DNA of 27,181 nucleotides. Source: a virus. The notes under the pieces are model-generated. The model made no database searches, was not told where the DNA came from, and saw nothing but the letters and a program-made list of their open reading frames with translations. Shown here in pieces: positions 15,601 through 26,986 of the stretch. Made by a program: the position numbers and the translations under genes. How positions within the stretch are numbered: the first letter of the stretch is position 1; each line of letters starts with the position of its first letter. The stretch lies in the IMG/VR virus record IMGVR_UViG_3300045738_001853, positions 1-27,181 of that record, one strand, 5' to 3'.

Positions 15601-18167
15601 AATCAACAGTTATTGAAAAAGTATCAGCATTTAGAGGAGTAGATACAGCATATAACCCTGCTCTGACAGGTATGAAGGCGATGCCGGATCATACAACTAT
15701 GTACTTTGGGTATGCATTATCGGCATCACCGGCTGATGGGTCTAATACTATAGGTGAAGCTGATCCTACAGCGTTACAGCTTCGCGGATATGGGGCTTTT
15801 TATATCGATGGGTTCGATTACTATAGAGAAACTATAGGTATAACAGGTACAAATTGTGATGCTGTATATAATGGGTGGGGCTGGGCTAGATTTGATACTC
15901 GTGATATTGAATATAGTGAAGTAACTTATGGGCTGTTCAATCTCTCAGCTACTGACATTGATACGCTGTATCAAGCTAGTCACGGTAGAACAGAACATCA
16001 GCCTGTATGTTTTCATTTAGCAGCACCGGCCGGGGCGAATACAACATCAACATATTATGTTAGTACTGACGGTGTTAATTTAATTAGGTTGCATACAGGC
16101 GCTCCAGTATTATCTTCTAATGTATTACCCCTATCTGGGCCCGTTGGTAATTATGAAATATATGGTTGTGATAAAGTAAAGAATAATATACTGTTTTTAA
16201 ATCCTCATGTAACACGGCGATACCCGAGAGATTGTCCGCGGCAATATAGTGATTATGTTAAATCAGAAAAAGATAACTTAACTTTAAAATGGCATCAGGG
16301 CGGGCATCTTTATAAGTTTGACGGGGCTGATGGATCTTTGATGTGGACTACATCCGGGCTGTATGCACCATCTCACATAACAGTTGATAAGAATCAAAAT
16401 ATTTGGGTATCAGATGGTCAGGATAGATTGTTAGGCTTCACTAATCGGCTGGGTGATATGTTTGCAGATGTACAAGGTGGAGATACATATAATGTTCTTG
16501 ATGAGTATGATGCTTCTGGGCGTGTATCACCAACATGCCTAGCTGGGTGCGGTACAAATGTAGTACCTAGCGGTATTGATTACCGCCCGGTTGATCAATA
16601 CATTACTGGATTGGCTTGTGACTTAGACAATAGAGTGATCGCTCTTAATAATAAGGAGGGTAGAGTTTATTATCTTCAAGTGGATGGTGTAGATGCGAGC
16701 TTACTGAGTATGCAGTCTCTTGATGCATTTCCGCCGGGCAGAAGGATTGCTAATACACCTTCCCAAGTCCTAATAGCTGCTCAGCAGCAAGCGAGCAATC
16801 CGGGTGGTATACAAGCGTATGGAGACTTTACAGGGTTTAATTGGTTTAACAAATATCAATATTATCCTGAAGTAAGGCGACTTGGAACTTCAGTAACGTT
16901 TAATGTATTTCCGTCTGGTGGATATTATGGAATTAATAAATTTAATGAAGATTATGATGCTATCGAAACTATAAAATCATACCGGCAGCAAGATAACTTA
17001 TTTGAAGCTGAATCATTTTTTAATAATTTTTACGGTGAAATTGTTGGTGATGCGGACTCTGATCCAACTGAAGTTGGAAAGACGACTTACGAAAAAATTG
17101 CGAACTTCCTAGCAAATCACAAAGATATTGACACGTGTGATGTCAACGCACTATATTCATATTGTGATCAGTTTAATGTACCTATTGCAAACTTTAATTT
17201 TGCTTATCCGGCTCAATTGAAGAGAATTATGAATATTGGTTCTATTAAACATAAAAAATTATGGGGCGCTAGAGATCAATTTGCAGAGAATTTTGATTTA
17301 GATTATGGAGCCGGTGATCTAAAACCGTCTAATCTAGGGGCAAAAATTCCGGTATCTGCTGCGGTGAGTACACATATGCTAACTGCTGGAGAACCTGTTG
17401 TAGCTAGGCAGATGTTTAATAATGAATTTAGATTAATTACACCAATGATAATAGATAATCAGACTACTTTTGGGTCTGGGTTATATCAAACTTCAGCATA
17501 TCCATTGAGTACATATCCATTGAGTTCTTACAGCAACCGGTGGGGGTGGAATATTGATCCGGATGCCGTTGATCAGTCTGTATCAGGTGTTGAGATAGTA
17601 AATTATTTTGATTTTTATGAATATGTTCCAGGGTATGATGGCACTCAATTAGAAGGAGTTATTGATTGGAGTAACGCTGGATCTAATGTTACTGAAACAT
17701 TATCTAGTCTTAGTGCATGGGCAGGGCATCACGGTATGCTAGAAAATATGATTGATCATTCATTGAGAATGGGTACTCAGTCATTTGCAGATGCAAAATT
17801 GGGCGGTGCCATACCAACATCAGTTAATACCAGTAACTTAGCTGAACCAACACAAACATTGAATGTAACAATACCAAACAATACAAATGTGTTTACGATA
17901 AATGGTAAGACGCGTCCGACAATATATTTACAGAAAGGTAATATGTATCAGTTCGTTACTGATGCTACTACTACATTTGAGCCATTTAGATTCTTCTCCG
18001 AACCGGATGATGTAAGTAAACAAGTAACTGATGGAGTTACTTTAACTAATGATGCGGCCGGGGCCGGTGGTATATTAACCATAGTTCCAACACCTCAAAC
18101 TCCAGATATGTTATACTATGGCTCATTAAGTGGTACAAATTACGGATTTGCGGTTGTATTTATATAA
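12681..18167 (+). CDS. Very large baseplate-associated protein with PKD and NHL-like propeller (gp7 position)
   Basis: 1828 residues, directly after gp6 where T4 has gp7 (1032 residues). Regions seen: a possible carbohydrate-binding-type jelly roll (about 60-270, with YRFSFYTKAEANPGLVYMSC and a short LIDNILLEEVEV end); a PKD domain (about 280-335, WDFGDGTFGSGLTATHVY); and beta-propeller blades of NHL/SMP-30 type between about 770 and 1350 (GIAVDRKKDVWV, AIDTDVDSNIWVSF, GLVVDSHNDLFV, ITVDKNQNIWVSDG, GLACDLDNRVIAL). A helical part follows near 1496-1530 (NFNFAYPAQLKRIMNIGSIK, then KKLWG), and a C-terminal cupredoxin-like domain (about 1718-1828, FTINGKTRPTIYLQKGNMYQ) ends it. Copper ligands are not seen in that last domain. 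It is probably a peripheral wedge protein that also binds host surface glycans. Its homology to T4 gp7 itself is not visible. Confidence 0.85.
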   Translation: MATTTHVKKEIHAFPTTLSGYTGISLPDPSNVLTNFKFTIQKEWIVSKVFQTLWQEGFETGPVPWRNLSCFHHSHVNKCIYEPDYWACAERPTYISVRCGVWDEAWGELHPNGGYANWLFYPNYYPDKDDLLAGYEIEIQGYSSRYSLKIKTYDKPITPAAIGDEWGEVGGYGGASIYLRDLFIPQRQQIGKHYRFSFYTKAEANPGLVYMSCTQGFGKKSNNMSYKFTPTTEWVKHEHIFEMDEVMDWLIVYSDTPYQQFLIDNILLEEVEVTLAHPSRHILWDFGDGTFGSGLTATHVYTWPGIYPIKTIFYDQYGRPQENTVVPTVTVYNAMDDQLRLDYSIPDFTTEIPAGEQGFDASIPQFRTLRYSTWQSWPNLSGSNYSLFLHASGSLSNRLNVGRYYDEKWSHLDQTWAFYTSAVAADGTTDWIPVSSVDTTSTLLYKRWRYADETNPDPDNLVLRDCERTDIGACFVGTSGYADFKYIDDLPKHNFPDSTDPSVESDEEPVVLIASLDMEHFPSDREPFVKKGRDYNLTTMGVSEPPKLTIPIKTVPTPGWGLSITSTGQPNMPIEKIKWQDTAIPFFVNTLNQNGYIVETYPPLSGCIGCSTYAPGIINVTLDKSPDPNAVGANWYYDTYTNLPRHINSRLHGFFVPWGTSYNDDFTGATLSATTYIIHPLSSLSAVHTMPNPHRCYYVWNTPTESSVIKLIHHPSNFATMSMQGGAVEYKMSEALSGAPGMHSLPGEVLGTVTVIDQFNQQNPQTTTWLADTRLNRLTKLDSNGNVVQTISADQEVKHTWCDPSPASIDISPEPEPWQVGPGRQFESLPGCTVGLLGIAVDRKKDVWVTAHDAGYIAKFNSVSGTLMTSISTAELEIVTGTTNPTTSTGFVSADVLGGLKPTAIDTDVDSNIWVSFTNPTSCFVQKFNGTDGQPISDFKYEFANGELPVGLVVDSHNDLFVITNFWNEETPIQSTVIEKVSAFRGVDTAYNPALTGMKAMPDHTTMYFGYALSASPADGSNTIGEADPTALQLRGYGAFYIDGFDYYRETIGITGTNCDAVYNGWGWARFDTRDIEYSEVTYGLFNLSATDIDTLYQASHGRTEHQPVCFHLAAPAGANTTSTYYVSTDGVNLIRLHTGAPVLSSNVLPLSGPVGNYEIYGCDKVKNNILFLNPHVTRRYPRDCPRQYSDYVKSEKDNLTLKWHQGGHLYKFDGADGSLMWTTSGLYAPSHITVDKNQNIWVSDGQDRLLGFTNRLGDMFADVQGGDTYNVLDEYDASGRVSPTCLAGCGTNVVPSGIDYRPVDQYITGLACDLDNRVIALNNKEGRVYYLQVDGVDASLLSMQSLDAFPPGRRIANTPSQVLIAAQQQASNPGGIQAYGDFTGFNWFNKYQYYPEVRRLGTSVTFNVFPSGGYYGINKFNEDYDAIETIKSYRQQDNLFEAESFFNNFYGEIVGDADSDPTEVGKTTYEKIANFLANHKDIDTCDVNALYSYCDQFNVPIANFNFAYPAQLKRIMNIGSIKHKKLWGARDQFAENFDLDYGAGDLKPSNLGAKIPVSAAVSTHMLTAGEPVVARQMFNNEFRLITPMIIDNQTTFGSGLYQTSAYPLSTYPLSSYSNRWGWNIDPDAVDQSVSGVEIVNYFDFYEYVPGYDGTQLEGVIDWSNAGSNVTETLSSLSAWAGHHGMLENMIDHSLRMGTQSFADAKLGGAIPTSVNTSNLAEPTQTLNVTIPNNTNVFTINGKTRPTIYLQKGNMYQFVTDATTTFEPFRFFSEPDDVSKQVTDGVTLTNDAAGAGGILTIVPTPQTPDMLYYGSLSGTNYGFAVVFI

Positions 18168-18191: not shown

Positions 18192-20057
18192 ATGGGAAGT
18201 AAACAAACAAAAGGCGGTTGGAAAGAGGGAATTTTTGGCACCGGTGTGATGAACTACATCGCAAACCGGATGCCTTATTCCAACACGGCTGTTATTGATA
18301 ACATCTTAGAAGTAAATCCTAAGTTTAGAGAATTCTATGGAGCTGGTACAGAGCGGGATGAAGCGATAGTTCGACATTCTATTTCATCAGCAAACCCAGT
18401 TCTTGGAACTAATGACCCGGTTGGTGGTATTACTATTGATAGGCATTATCAACAAATAATGTATGCTAATGTCGAGTATAATAAGATTAAACGTTTACGG
18501 GATTATAGAGTTATGGGTGCTTTTGCTGAGGTGGCCGACGCGTTAGATGAAATATGTGATGAGAGTATCAATCAGGATGATGAAGGTACGCTGATGAAGT
18601 TAGATATAGATCAAGATGATATCGACGACATTCAACAAACAGAAATAGAAAAAGAATTCAAAAAATTTGTAAAGCATTACCAGATAGAGGAAAAGGGATG
18701 GGAATATTTTAGACAGTTGTTAGTAGATGGTGAATTATTCTTTGAGCATATTATTCATAAAGACCATCCGGATAAAGGAATTCTAGGAGTTTTGCAAATC
18801 CCGGCGGATGTAGTTGATCCAATATATGATAATGTTCAAAACTTATTAATTAAGGGATTTATATTAAGAAAACCGAAGTTGGATAATAAACCAAGACCGG
18901 CGCAAATGAGCAATGAAAATAAGGATAACGAGAATCCTACAATGTCTTCTGAGCAAACAAAGGTTGAGTTAGTACCATTAGATAAAAATCAAGTTACTTA
19001 TATACATAGTAATATTTGGAATGAAACAAGAACTTTAAGGATACCATTCATTGAAAATGCGAGAAGAGCTTACAAGCAATTATCGTTAACAGAAGATTCT
19101 ATTGTAATTTATAGACTAGTTCGAGCTCCGGAGCGTTTAGTTTTTAACGTCGATGTCGGTAATATGCCGCCACCTAAAGCAGAAGCTTATCTCAAAAAGC
19201 TTATGCAAAATTATTGGTCGCGTAAAACATTTGATTCCAGTCAGGGCCGTACCATAAATGCATTTAATCCTCAATCTATGCTAGATAGTTTTTGGTTTGC
19301 TAAGAGAGCAGGTAGTGATGGTACATCTGTTATTTCTCTACCAGGCGGGCAAAATCTTGGTGAGATAACAGACCTTTTATACTTTGTTAAAAAATTATAC
19401 AAATCTCTTAAAGTACCAACAAACCGGATTGATCCAGAATCATCATTCAGAGATGGTTTAGATGTTCTTAGAGAAGAATTAAAATTTGCTAAGTTTATTA
19501 TTCGTATTCAACAAACATTTGCAAACGGCTTAAAAGATGCTTTCATTACCCATCTTAAGCTAAGGGAATTTTGGAGTGAATATAAGTTAAAAGACACAGC
19601 ACTTTCAGTAACTTTCCACCCCCCGACTAATTTCTTTGAAATGAGAGAGTCTCAGAAATTAGAATTAAAAGCAGCTAACTTCAATAATCTGGCTGCTAAT
19701 GAATATATTTCAACATCTTACGCTCAGAAGAAGTGGTTGGACTGGAGTGATGTGCAGATTAAAGCTAACAGAGAGTGGATGCGTAAGGATGCGGCTTTAA
19801 TGTGGGAGATATCTCAAATAACAGCTATGGGTCCGGATTGGAAAGCAGCAATGGCGGAACAACAAGCTGGCGCTGAAGGTGCTGAGGGTATGGAACCTGG
19901 TGGAGGCATGCCAATGGGCGGTGGCGCCGGTGGGGCGCCACCTGCCTTTGGACCACCGCCAGGTGGCGGACCTGCTGGTGAAGCGGAAATTGCACCACCA
20001 GGCGGGGAATTACCGGCATCGCCAGATTTAGGCGGGGCGGGGCCTCCGCCAGCATAA
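18192..20057 (+). CDS. 20: Portal vertex protein gp20
   Basis: 621 residues (T4 gp20 has 524). T4-type portal features include DRHYQQIMYANVEYNKIKRLRDYRVM, FAEVADALDEICDESI, the wing/stem region VIYRLVRAPERLVFNVDVGNMPPPKAEAYL and NPQSMLDSFWFAKRAGSDG, and TNRIDPESSF plus DGLDVLREELKFAKFI. The portal forms the dodecameric DNA gate at the head vertex. The last 50 residues are Gly/Pro/Ala-rich and low complexity (GGGMPMGGGAGGAPP), absent from T4 and probably disordered. This tail is the GC-rich part of the gene. The stop codon lies inside the late-promoter box of the next gene. Confidence 0.95.
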   Translation: MGSKQTKGGWKEGIFGTGVMNYIANRMPYSNTAVIDNILEVNPKFREFYGAGTERDEAIVRHSISSANPVLGTNDPVGGITIDRHYQQIMYANVEYNKIKRLRDYRVMGAFAEVADALDEICDESINQDDEGTLMKLDIDQDDIDDIQQTEIEKEFKKFVKHYQIEEKGWEYFRQLLVDGELFFEHIIHKDHPDKGILGVLQIPADVVDPIYDNVQNLLIKGFILRKPKLDNKPRPAQMSNENKDNENPTMSSEQTKVELVPLDKNQVTYIHSNIWNETRTLRIPFIENARRAYKQLSLTEDSIVIYRLVRAPERLVFNVDVGNMPPPKAEAYLKKLMQNYWSRKTFDSSQGRTINAFNPQSMLDSFWFAKRAGSDGTSVISLPGGQNLGEITDLLYFVKKLYKSLKVPTNRIDPESSFRDGLDVLREELKFAKFIIRIQQTFANGLKDAFITHLKLREFWSEYKLKDTALSVTFHPPTNFFEMRESQKLELKAANFNNLAANEYISTSYAQKKWLDWSDVQIKANREWMRKDAALMWEISQITAMGPDWKAAMAEQQAGAEGAEGMEPGGGMPMGGGAGGAPPAFGPPPGGGPAGEAEIAPPGGELPASPDLGGAGPPPA

Positions 20058-24623: not shown

Positions 24624-26057
24624 ATGCAAAAGCAAATTAAACCATCGGAATCATATATTGATGAGAGTCGAGCTCGCTCACTAGTCGAGAAGTGGAGTCC
24701 TGTATTGGATTACTCTTCGAAGAATGTGGCCGAGATCGAAGATGACAATACCCGCCTAAATACGGCTATTCTTCTAGAGAATCAAGAGCAGTGGTGCTTA
24801 ACTGAGGCTCAGAATAGTGCTGGTGAAGTGGGTGGAGGCAACAGTGTGTTCGGTTCACACCAAGGTACAGCAGGTGCTTACAGTGGTGACCGTTACGCAT
24901 CTGGAGACGCTCGTCTTCCCAAGATTCTTATCCCAATGATTCGCAGAACATTCCCTGAGTTGATCACTAACGAAATCGTTGGTGTCCAACCCATGAGTGG
25001 TCCAGTTGGGTTAGCTTTCGCGTTGCGCTATCGGTACGAGTCTGATTCGTTAGGTGCGGATGGTATTGATGGGAAGAAATTCACATCAACCAATCGCCCT
25101 GAAGCGGATGCAGCGGATGAGAAGGAAATCGGTTACCAAGACTTGGATACTCGGTTCACTGGAACATCCTCAGCCCAACTAAGCGGAAGCACTGACTTCG
25201 CTATGATGGGTCAGGATCAAGGTGTTGCTGAGTTACTCAAGAATTATGAGTTAACTGGTAAAATCCCTCAAGTCGTCGTACAATTCGAGAAAACAGCTGT
25301 TGAAGCTGGTACTCGAAGGTTAGCAGCCCGTTGGAGCGTCGAGCTCGAGCAGGACCTTAAGAACATGAATGGTATCGACGTGGATACCGAACTCACAAAT
25401 GCAATGTCTTATGAATTGCAGGCTGAGATCGACCGCGAAATGATCATTCGTATGATTCAGGTTGCGCTTAATGCCGGCACCAAGGGCGTAAGCACGTGGA
25501 CCCCAGCTTCGGCTGATGGTCGCTGGCTTGCAGAGAGAAATCGTGACTTCTACCAAAAGTTGATTGTTGAAGCGAATCGGATTGCCATCCGGAACAGACG
25601 CGGAGCAGCTAACTTCATCGTGTGCACGCCACGTGTGGCTGCCATCTTGGAGATGTTGCCCGAGTTCCAATGGATGCCAGTTAACGGTAACGTGAATACT
25701 CAACCAGTCGGAATTGCCAAAGTTGGTAATCTCGGAGGTAGATTTAATGTTTATCGTGATACAAGAACTGAAGCCCAGTTTGAAAACGCACTTCGCGGTG
25801 CTCGTCTAGAGTACGCGTTGTTGGGTTACAAAGGGCCTGAGTTCTATGACACGGGAATCATTTATTGTCCGTATATCCCTGTAATGGTACAGCGTACTAT
25901 TGGACCGAACGACTTCTCACCTCGCGTGGGCTTGTTGACTCGTTACGGCGTCGTAGACAACATATTTGGAGCAGACCTATATTATCATGTGATAATTGTC
26001 AAGGATCTGTCCCCAGATACGTTCGAGCGCTCGTCAGCTAACGTCAGCTACCTCTAA
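24624..26057 (+). CDS. 23: Major capsid protein gp23
   Basis: 477 residues (T4 gp23 has 521). The N-terminal propiece includes RSLVEKWSPVLDY, then ENQEQWCLTEAQN; an (L)TE site at Glu61 is the probable gp21 cleavage point, matching T4 cleavage at Glu65. Downstream family features are LPKILIPMIRRTFPELITNEIVGVQPMSGPVGLAFALRY, IDREMIIRMIQVALN, ANFIVCTPRVAAILEMLPEF, GPEFYDTGIIYCPYIPVM and SPRVGLLTRYGVVDNIFG. Codon use is much richer in C/G-ending codons (AAC, ATC, CGT, GGT) than in neighbours, consistent with very high expression. It is followed by the strongest terminator in the window. Confidence 0.97.
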   Translation: MQKQIKPSESYIDESRARSLVEKWSPVLDYSSKNVAEIEDDNTRLNTAILLENQEQWCLTEAQNSAGEVGGGNSVFGSHQGTAGAYSGDRYASGDARLPKILIPMIRRTFPELITNEIVGVQPMSGPVGLAFALRYRYESDSLGADGIDGKKFTSTNRPEADAADEKEIGYQDLDTRFTGTSSAQLSGSTDFAMMGQDQGVAELLKNYELTGKIPQVVVQFEKTAVEAGTRRLAARWSVELEQDLKNMNGIDVDTELTNAMSYELQAEIDREMIIRMIQVALNAGTKGVSTWTPASADGRWLAERNRDFYQKLIVEANRIAIRNRRGAANFIVCTPRVAAILEMLPEFQWMPVNGNVNTQPVGIAKVGNLGGRFNVYRDTRTEAQFENALRGARLEYALLGYKGPEFYDTGIIYCPYIPVMVQRTIGPNDFSPRVGLLTRYGVVDNIFGADLYYHVIIVKDLSPDTFERSSANVSYL

Positions 26058-26083: not shown

Positions 26084-26290
26084 TCAACCCCGACTTCGGT
26101 CGGGGTTTTTTTTGTCTACCTTACATCCCAGCTCAATCATGGCGATGATCCACTTTTCCATGCCCCGCTTAGTGACTCGCACTCTGCCATTGGATTTCTT
26201 GTATAATTCTACAAAATCTTGGTCGTAGTCGCATTCAAGGATTAGGCTCCCGTCTTTCTGTGGTCGCTCTTCTATGATCTCAAACTTCAT
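26084..26290 (-). CDS. Unrecognised 68-residue protein
   Basis: 68 residues beginning MKFEIIEERPQKDGSLILEC and including DYDQDFVELYKKSNGRVRVTKR. It has beta strands then a helix (MEKWIIAMIELGCKV). Small 'strand-strand-E-F-helix' phage proteins of this kind are common, but I do not recognise a named family. The stop and last codons lie within the capsid terminator hairpin on the other strand, an economical tail-to-tail arrangement. It is preceded by the 87-base inverted-repeat element, which may control it. Confidence 0.65.
   Translation of the reverse strand: MKFEIIEERPQKDGSLILECDYDQDFVELYKKSNGRVRVTKRGMEKWIIAMIELGCKVDKKNPDRSRG
26086..26113 (+). terminator. Strong intrinsic terminator after gp23
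   Basis: CCCCGAC (26088-26094), loop TTCG, GTCGGGG (26099-26105), then eight T. The loop makes a cUUCGg tetraloop closed by C-G, exceptionally stable in RNA. It ends late transcription of the head operon. The same DNA also encodes the last residues of the opposite-strand gene. Confidence 0.95.
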
Positions 26291-26296
26291 AATTAG

Positions 26297-26383
26297 TAAC
26301 CTAGCCGCAGGATATTACCCGAGAGCGCTTTCCATCAACTCTCAGTGCCTATTACCGGTGGGTTAGCGGTTACGGCTAGGTTA
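26297..26383 (-). ncRNA. Structured leader element, candidate cis-regulatory RNA
   Basis: A perfect 11-base inverted repeat, TAACCTAGCCG (26297-26307) with CGGCTAGGTTA (26373-26383), closes an 87-base element that fills the 96-base spacer between two minus-strand genes. Read as minus-strand RNA, the inside has two more hairpins: ACCG/CGGT (26370-26367 with 26357-26354) and CUGAGAG/CUCUCGG (26345-26339 with 26325-26319). The second has a U-G pair on the minus strand but a C-A mismatch on the plus strand, favouring minus-strand RNA. The 3' arm of the closing stem holds UAGG, 9 bases before the AUG at 26290, so the ribosome site would be buried when the stem forms. It matches no RNA class I know. 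Confidence 0.5.
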
Positions 26384-26386
26384 AAT

Positions 26387-26986
26387 TTAATCCCACAAAT
26401 TCAAATAATATTTAGCAAACAAATCCAACCCTTCTTGGACTCTCTCGCTATGCTTCTCGCATGGTGTCCAATCAAATCCTCTATCGTCTAAGCCCTCGTA
26501 TCCAACGCTACCGTCACTGTAGGTAGTTTTCTTGTGTCTTGGGTCATAGTCCTTAGGCTCAATTGGGCTAACCGTGTCTTCCCAATGCTCAAATGACCAA
26601 ATCATTTTATCTAAAGTTTTCTCCCATTTACGCACAGCCCTGTCCATAGCAAGGTCTCGGTCTTTCTCGGACAATTCGTAGTCAGTACTGTGATCGTAAT
26701 CCTTTTCAAACATCTCGCTAGGACAGCCATTGAGATTATTCCGGAAGTGCTTCAAGCGGGGCACAACTATCTTTGAGTGCCAACTATGAAAATTCCACGC
26801 CTCCTCGTGTGGGAAGCCCGTTTGCCAAGTCTGTCGCTTTTGACGCCACCAGTACTCGACCGCTTCATACTTCCATTTGAATCGCCACCAAACTCTTTGA
26901 TACAAAGAAATTTTTGATCTCTCGCAAATATCTTCCATGAATCGTCCAACGATTTCTTCTTTTACTATTGTCCTTTTTTTACTCAT
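26387..26986 (-). CDS. Trp-rich conserved phage protein of unknown function
   Basis: 199 residues with many Trp. The core TGFPHEEAWNFHSWHSKIVVPRLKHFRNNLNGCPSEMF and WEKTLDKMIWSFEHWED follows a pattern I recall from many phage hypothetical proteins: 'GxxxxxxWNLDxxIAxFIxPRLxxFxxxxxGxP' and 'W-x-x-x-L-x-K-M-(I/V)-x-(A/S)-F-E'. These have no established function. The protein is soluble and acidic in the second half. The preceding gene's TAA directly abuts its ATG. Confidence 0.8.
   Translation of the reverse strand: MSKKRTIVKEEIVGRFMEDICERSKISLYQRVWWRFKWKYEAVEYWWRQKRQTWQTGFPHEEAWNFHSWHSKIVVPRLKHFRNNLNGCPSEMFEKDYDHSTDYELSEKDRDLAMDRAVRKWEKTLDKMIWSFEHWEDTVSPIEPKDYDPRHKKTTYSDGSVGYEGLDDRGFDWTPCEKHSERVQEGLDLFAKYYLNLWD

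Follow-up and report, generated by a model that had tools for sequence, protein, structure and literature searches.

An 87-nucleotide stretch lying between two minus-strand genes of a phage very probably folds, according to energy modelling, into a stable RNA structure, and it is preserved at the same place in a second phage. We consider an intercistronic RNA in this spacer plausible because its closing helix is kept in that relative through a change from C-G to U-G, and its most likely role is to help control or protect the message of the neighbouring genes. The reading we favour, at a probability of roughly 0.35, is that of a cis-acting minus-strand RNA belonging to the end of the upstream gene and opened by the ribosomes that terminate there—a case of translational coupling. 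The whole stretch of DNA analysed (27,181 nucleotides, hereafter the window) comes from a T4-like phage recorded in IMG/VR, of which it is a fragment, and encodes a gp23-like capsid, prohead protease, portal, head-tail adaptor and baseplate hub proteins. The features on which the argument turns are as follows:

26297-26383, minus-strand RNA: structured intercistronic element of 87 nt, recognised by its inverted repeat, its fold and a relative identical at 85 of 87 positions
26371-26383, minus strand: 5' strand of the closing helix P1 (11 perfect base pairs plus U.G and A-U), predicted by the fold and kept in the relative, where C5->U gives U.G
26297-26309, minus strand: 3' strand of P1, containing UAGG (26300-26303), from the repeat and the fold
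26354-26370, minus strand: candidate small hairpin P2 (ACCG, 9 nt, CGGU), pair probability about 0.47
26319-26345, minus strand: inner hairpin P3 of the original prediction (CUGAGAGU/GCUCUCGG), disrupted in the relative by a single change
26387-26986, minus strand: upstream gene, 199 aa, phrog_11543, function not assigned, ending in a stop codon 3 bases ahead of the element
26084-26290, minus strand: downstream small ORF, 68 aa, function not assigned, with 55-56% identical orthologues at loci L004 and L010
26086-26107, plus strand: intrinsic terminator of the converging capsid gene, from terminator prediction
24624-26057, plus strand: major capsid protein (T4 gp23-like, phrog_138), the converging gene, by annotation

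Of the 96 bases that separate the stop of the upstream ORF from the start of the downstream one, the element takes up 87. Its ends, TAACCTAGCCG and CGGCTAGGTTA (26297-26307 and 26373-26383), form a perfect 11-bp inverted repeat, to which U.G and A-U add two further pairs on the minus strand. The repeat, the near-complete filling of the spacer and the two occurrences of GGUAAUA had all been pointed out in the original prediction, and all of them hold up; of the two GGUAAUA copies, for which a ligand or tertiary contact had been raised as a possibility, one has its GGU within the proposed P2 stem. Judged by number alone, such a repeat is not rare (three in the window against 1.05 expected, for loops of 3-100); this one is the sole 11-bp repeat with at least six G/C (0 in 40 shuffles). 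The minimum free energy on the minus strand is -33.0 kcal/mol, with a z of -3.54 and none of 200 dinucleotide shuffles equally good, and the plus-strand fold is weaker (z -1.98). After correction for composition, the element ranks 27th among the 9034 87-mer folds scanned across the window, and several other top-ranking 87-base folds sit in coding DNA, so that folding energy by itself proves nothing: the fold is strong, not unique. The best composition-corrected fold of the window (-37.0 kcal/mol) lies at 16519-16605 (+), in an 1828-aa ORF, and its strongest folds are located at the end of the portal ORF (19860-20055, +), which encodes a Gly/Pro/Ala-rich tail at about 70% G+C against 38% for the window.

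The best evidence that the element does something appears to be its excess identity in a second IMG/VR phage (contig IMGVR_UViG_3300045738_002140), where L006:4606-4692 is the sole relative found across all collections searched. The two copies agree at 85 of 87 positions (97.7%), against 83.7% for the DNA of the upstream gene (71% at third codon positions) and 89.7% for the best 87-nt stretch of that gene; at the background divergence, two or fewer mismatches would be expected with a probability of about 6e-5. The loops and junctions are as well conserved as the helix. Both copies stand right after the stop of the same upstream gene, at a distance of 3 nt in the window and 2 nt in L006—and the start of the closing helix 2-3 bases after that stop is, besides sequence, the sole feature that the copies have in common. 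The excess identity may instead come from a recent local exchange of DNA. The main part of the original observation, a stable and closed minus-strand element, is real and strengthened by this one conserved relative.

Only two changes, C5->U and T62->G, separate the copies. The former turns a C-G pair of the closing helix into U.G, a pair when read from the minus strand and a mismatch when read from the plus; together with U12.G76, the minus-strand-only pair that had been singled out originally and is borne out here, the U5.G83 of the relative makes two strand-asymmetric pairs that form on the minus strand alone. The latter disrupts an A-U pair at the middle of P3—one broken pair of the fold first drawn, as seen in the comparison of the two homologues—and the pair probabilities of this hairpin fall from 0.7-1.0 in the window to 0.1 or less in the relative. 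Judging from its pair probabilities, the relative prefers another inner arrangement, and its minimum-free-energy fold differs from that of the window and is not significantly better than shuffled sequence (z -1.31). RNAalifold applied to both copies yields a third inner fold with 25 consensus pairs that fits both sequences; among these pairs, the two near-identical homologues offer no double change, one single change that is kept and no covariation. Since P3 is broken and alternative inner pairings fit both copies equally well, the closing helix is the only part of the predicted fold that is supported, the inner architecture being left with several fits. The two enclosed hairpins did not stand as fixed parts of the structure: P2 stays a candidate at a probability of about 0.47 in the window, and P3 is lost with T62->G. 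A cloverleaf or tRNA-like fold, which also fits both sequences, was rejected as energetically unfavoured in the window. Inside the element, 26315-26335 (-) holds a six-codon frame (AUG GAA AGC GCU CUC GGG UAA) that reads MESARG in the relative; it is probably due to chance, and it may conceivably encode a leader peptide.

From a genomic perspective, the element moves with the upstream gene and not with any given downstream gene. Ten relatives of the upstream gene (P0002) were found in IMG/VR—a profile search for distant relatives returned the same 10 loci—and the stretch after the stop is readable in nine of them. The element follows the stop in one of these nine (L006) and different spacers or genes do so in the other eight, with no second copy found in the ten whole records. 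The next gene in L006 encodes a 205-aa protein (MGMFDYISCEM...) unrelated to the 68-aa protein of the window, a distant homologue of which comes one gene later. As the order in other relatives runs from the upstream gene through variable genes to the 205-aa gene and then the 68-aa family, the 205-aa gene has seemingly dropped out of the window while the element was kept. The junction after the stop varies among the P0002-bearing loci, one of which (L004) holds a tRNA-Met gene there, and it is, from these comparisons of gene order, a gene-swapping site. Directly before that tRNA-Met, at the same junction, lies another spacer (L004:4636-4750) with a strong predicted fold (-49 kcal/mol, z -3.11); it matches nothing in Rfam and differs in sequence from the element. 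Moreover, a short conserved spacer with small variations, GCAACTGACAAGGATTCCTTTACAGTT, was observed right after the P0002 stop in L002, L003, L004, L005, L008 and L010; it is a small inverted repeat with an SD-like AAGGA at its palindromic centre, stands ahead of different genes and has the look of a further intercistronic hairpin that can be swapped.

With the capsid gene running towards the minus-strand genes and stopping at a strong terminator (26086-26107), transcription of the element is more likely on the minus strand and less likely on the plus strand. The original proposal of a structured minus-strand RNA in this spacer is supported. The reverse strand of the terminator hairpin also encodes the 3' end of the 68-aa ORF (...KKNPDRSRG, 26084-26110). 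The gene that runs towards the capsid terminator in a capsid relative (L015:6507-6902, -) resembles by eye a small secreted cytochrome c (CALCH), and it could possibly be an auxiliary metabolic gene. No promoter-like site was found at the element, and a CTAAATA at the end of the upstream gene resembles a T4 late promoter by its letters only. Motifs of the form xTAAATA, which we take to be comparable to T4 late promoters, occur near the start codons of about 8 of the 18 plus-strand genes (before those at 1302, 3104, 10242, 10855, 18192, 20067, 22503 and 23211), several of them leaving almost no space for a Shine-Dalgarno sequence.

The element is an orphan that matches no known RNA family, in keeping with the original reader's failure to recognise a riboswitch, ribozyme or tRNA pattern. 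Rfam 15 gave no match at the gathering score, none to its thermometer models and, at E<=10, a single match to a snoRNA model (17.6 bits) that makes no sense here; neither ARAGORN nor Rfam RF00005 recognised a cloverleaf with T-loop and anticodon arm. No similar DNA was returned by blastn against annotated phages. When a 21-mer, a gapped core pattern and two 15-mers were run against a viral contig collection, the matches beyond L012 and L006 (one and the same contig, counted as one relative) were seemingly due to chance, those of the 15-mers having no matching context; in a genome contig collection, the gapped pattern had one match, inside a murA-like coding gene, which also looks like chance. 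A covariance model (R1) searched over 80 capsid-relative loci, 10 P0002-bearing records and 50 whole records matched only the window and record G005. These two hold one copy each, at the same site, with none elsewhere among the records searched, and a MITE- or REP-like mobile inverted repeat, which would be present at different sites, was rejected. An intrinsic terminator was dismissed as well—the original prediction had named a simple terminator as something to check—given a 61-nt interior, the lack of a U tract on either strand and its absence from the terminator predictions for the window. Hammerhead, HDV-like and twister ribozymes were considered by eye and dropped, as was a TPP riboswitch: CUGAGA and GGUAAU are similar to motifs of that riboswitch, but the parts come in the wrong order and Rfam is silent.

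UAGG, in the 3' strand of P1, lies 9 bases before the AUG in the window, just as first described, and provides the sole SD-like bases ahead of the downstream start. The case for a ribosome site is nevertheless weak, because it consists of UAGG only and because the distance from AGG to AUG is 13 bases in the relative, ahead of an unrelated gene; these last two observations also tell against the switch specific to the small downstream gene that had been suggested. In the fold predicted in context, AGG is fully paired, and the model keeps it at least 99.9% paired (unpaired probability <=0.001) from 4 to 50 °C. RNA thermometers such as FourU, ROSE and the FourU of prophage SPbeta blyA (PMC10586365) likewise hold SD-like bases within a 5' leader stem, but we consider the thermometer proposed originally to be extremely improbable, because the predicted helix stays closed throughout that range; its 11 Watson-Crick pairs run without interruption and lack the weak, mismatched pairing usual in thermometers, and it is far too stable and displays neither a FourU/ROSE pattern nor a modelled response to temperature. 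A metabolite-sensing riboswitch acting on the downstream gene would suit the size of the element, its multi-branch fold and the repeated GGUAAUA; it is nonetheless improbable, with different and unrelated genes downstream of the two copies, no conserved expression platform, a fold that differs between 98%-identical sequences and no described aptamer family matched in Rfam.

Translational coupling, the reading we favour, would operate through the position of P1 (11-13 bp), which starts 2-3 bases past the upstream stop and whose 3' strand may carry the weak ribosome site of whichever gene comes next. A ribosome that terminates there should sit over a large part of the 5' strand of P1. If, as we infer, the element is transcribed and UAGG is used, ribosomes ending the upstream gene would cover and open that strand and the translation of the next gene could then start; in the absence of upstream translation, the ribosome site would remain shut. 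In favour of this scenario, we note the 3-nt and 2-nt distances from the stop, the predicted placement of UAGG in a helix that fully pairs its AGG, an identity above that of the upstream gene and the two pairs confined to the minus strand. Coupling by unfolding is documented at +52 nt for rpmI-rplT and at the phage f1 VII/IX hairpin—a precedent across a gap of similar order (PMC12548453). Such hairpins, in phage MS2 coat/lysis, phage f1 VII/IX and E. coli rpmI-rplT, likewise place a structure between or across genes, over the downstream start region, that upstream ribosomes can disrupt (PMC12548453), whereas the spacer considered here is wholly non-coding, the gap from stop to start is long (96-102 nt), the SD is weak and the coupling is predicted. 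Besides, predicted structure just past a stop correlates with weaker coupling, as cited in the same review (PMC12548453); two near-identical sequences display no covariation, and a local recombination patch could also yield the excess identity. We keep the estimate at about 0.35, with the alternative that follows rated almost as likely, because of this post-stop structure, the weak SD and the invariant loops and junctions, which coupling by itself leaves unexplained.

That alternative, tentative in its turn, is a structured RNA with its own job in the upstream transcript—a stabiliser of the 3' end, a site for RNase processing or for protein binding, or the origin of a small trans-acting RNA—for which the downstream gene would be irrelevant. 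It would account for loops and junctions as conserved as the helix, for an element that accompanies the upstream gene through a change of downstream gene and for the lack of a U-tract terminator at either end; the absence of another copy in the records searched and of a promoter-like site at the element counts against it. Intercistronic stabiliser and processing hairpins, e.g., REP-like elements and RNase III sites, also present a strong stem right after a stop codon within an operon, yet the element differs from them in its long, conserved 61-nt interior in place of a small loop, and it is not repeated in the rest of the window or among the records searched. A remnant without function, or a patch of DNA shared recently, such as a decayed tRNA-like or cassette remnant with a good inverted repeat by chance, is unlikely, though worth weighing at a junction where genes and spacers are swapped and a tRNA-Met gene occurs in L004, when two copies are known and the fold of the relative is close to that of shuffled sequence. 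An identity clearly higher than in the upstream coding sequence, a closing helix kept through a G.U-type change and the lack of ARAGORN or Rfam tRNA matches argue against it. Less likely still, the element could represent a new family of phage structured RNA, its loops conserved, that is tied to genes of the phrog_11543 type in large T4-like phages; such an RNA would recognise a partner (a protein, a host RNA or a ligand) by sequence and act independently of the next gene, though two known copies are too few for the name family.

If real, the element would add a conserved RNA not described before to a group of T4-like phages that is abundant but uncultured; situated at a gene-swap junction, it would be a spacer RNA outliving the genes beside it.
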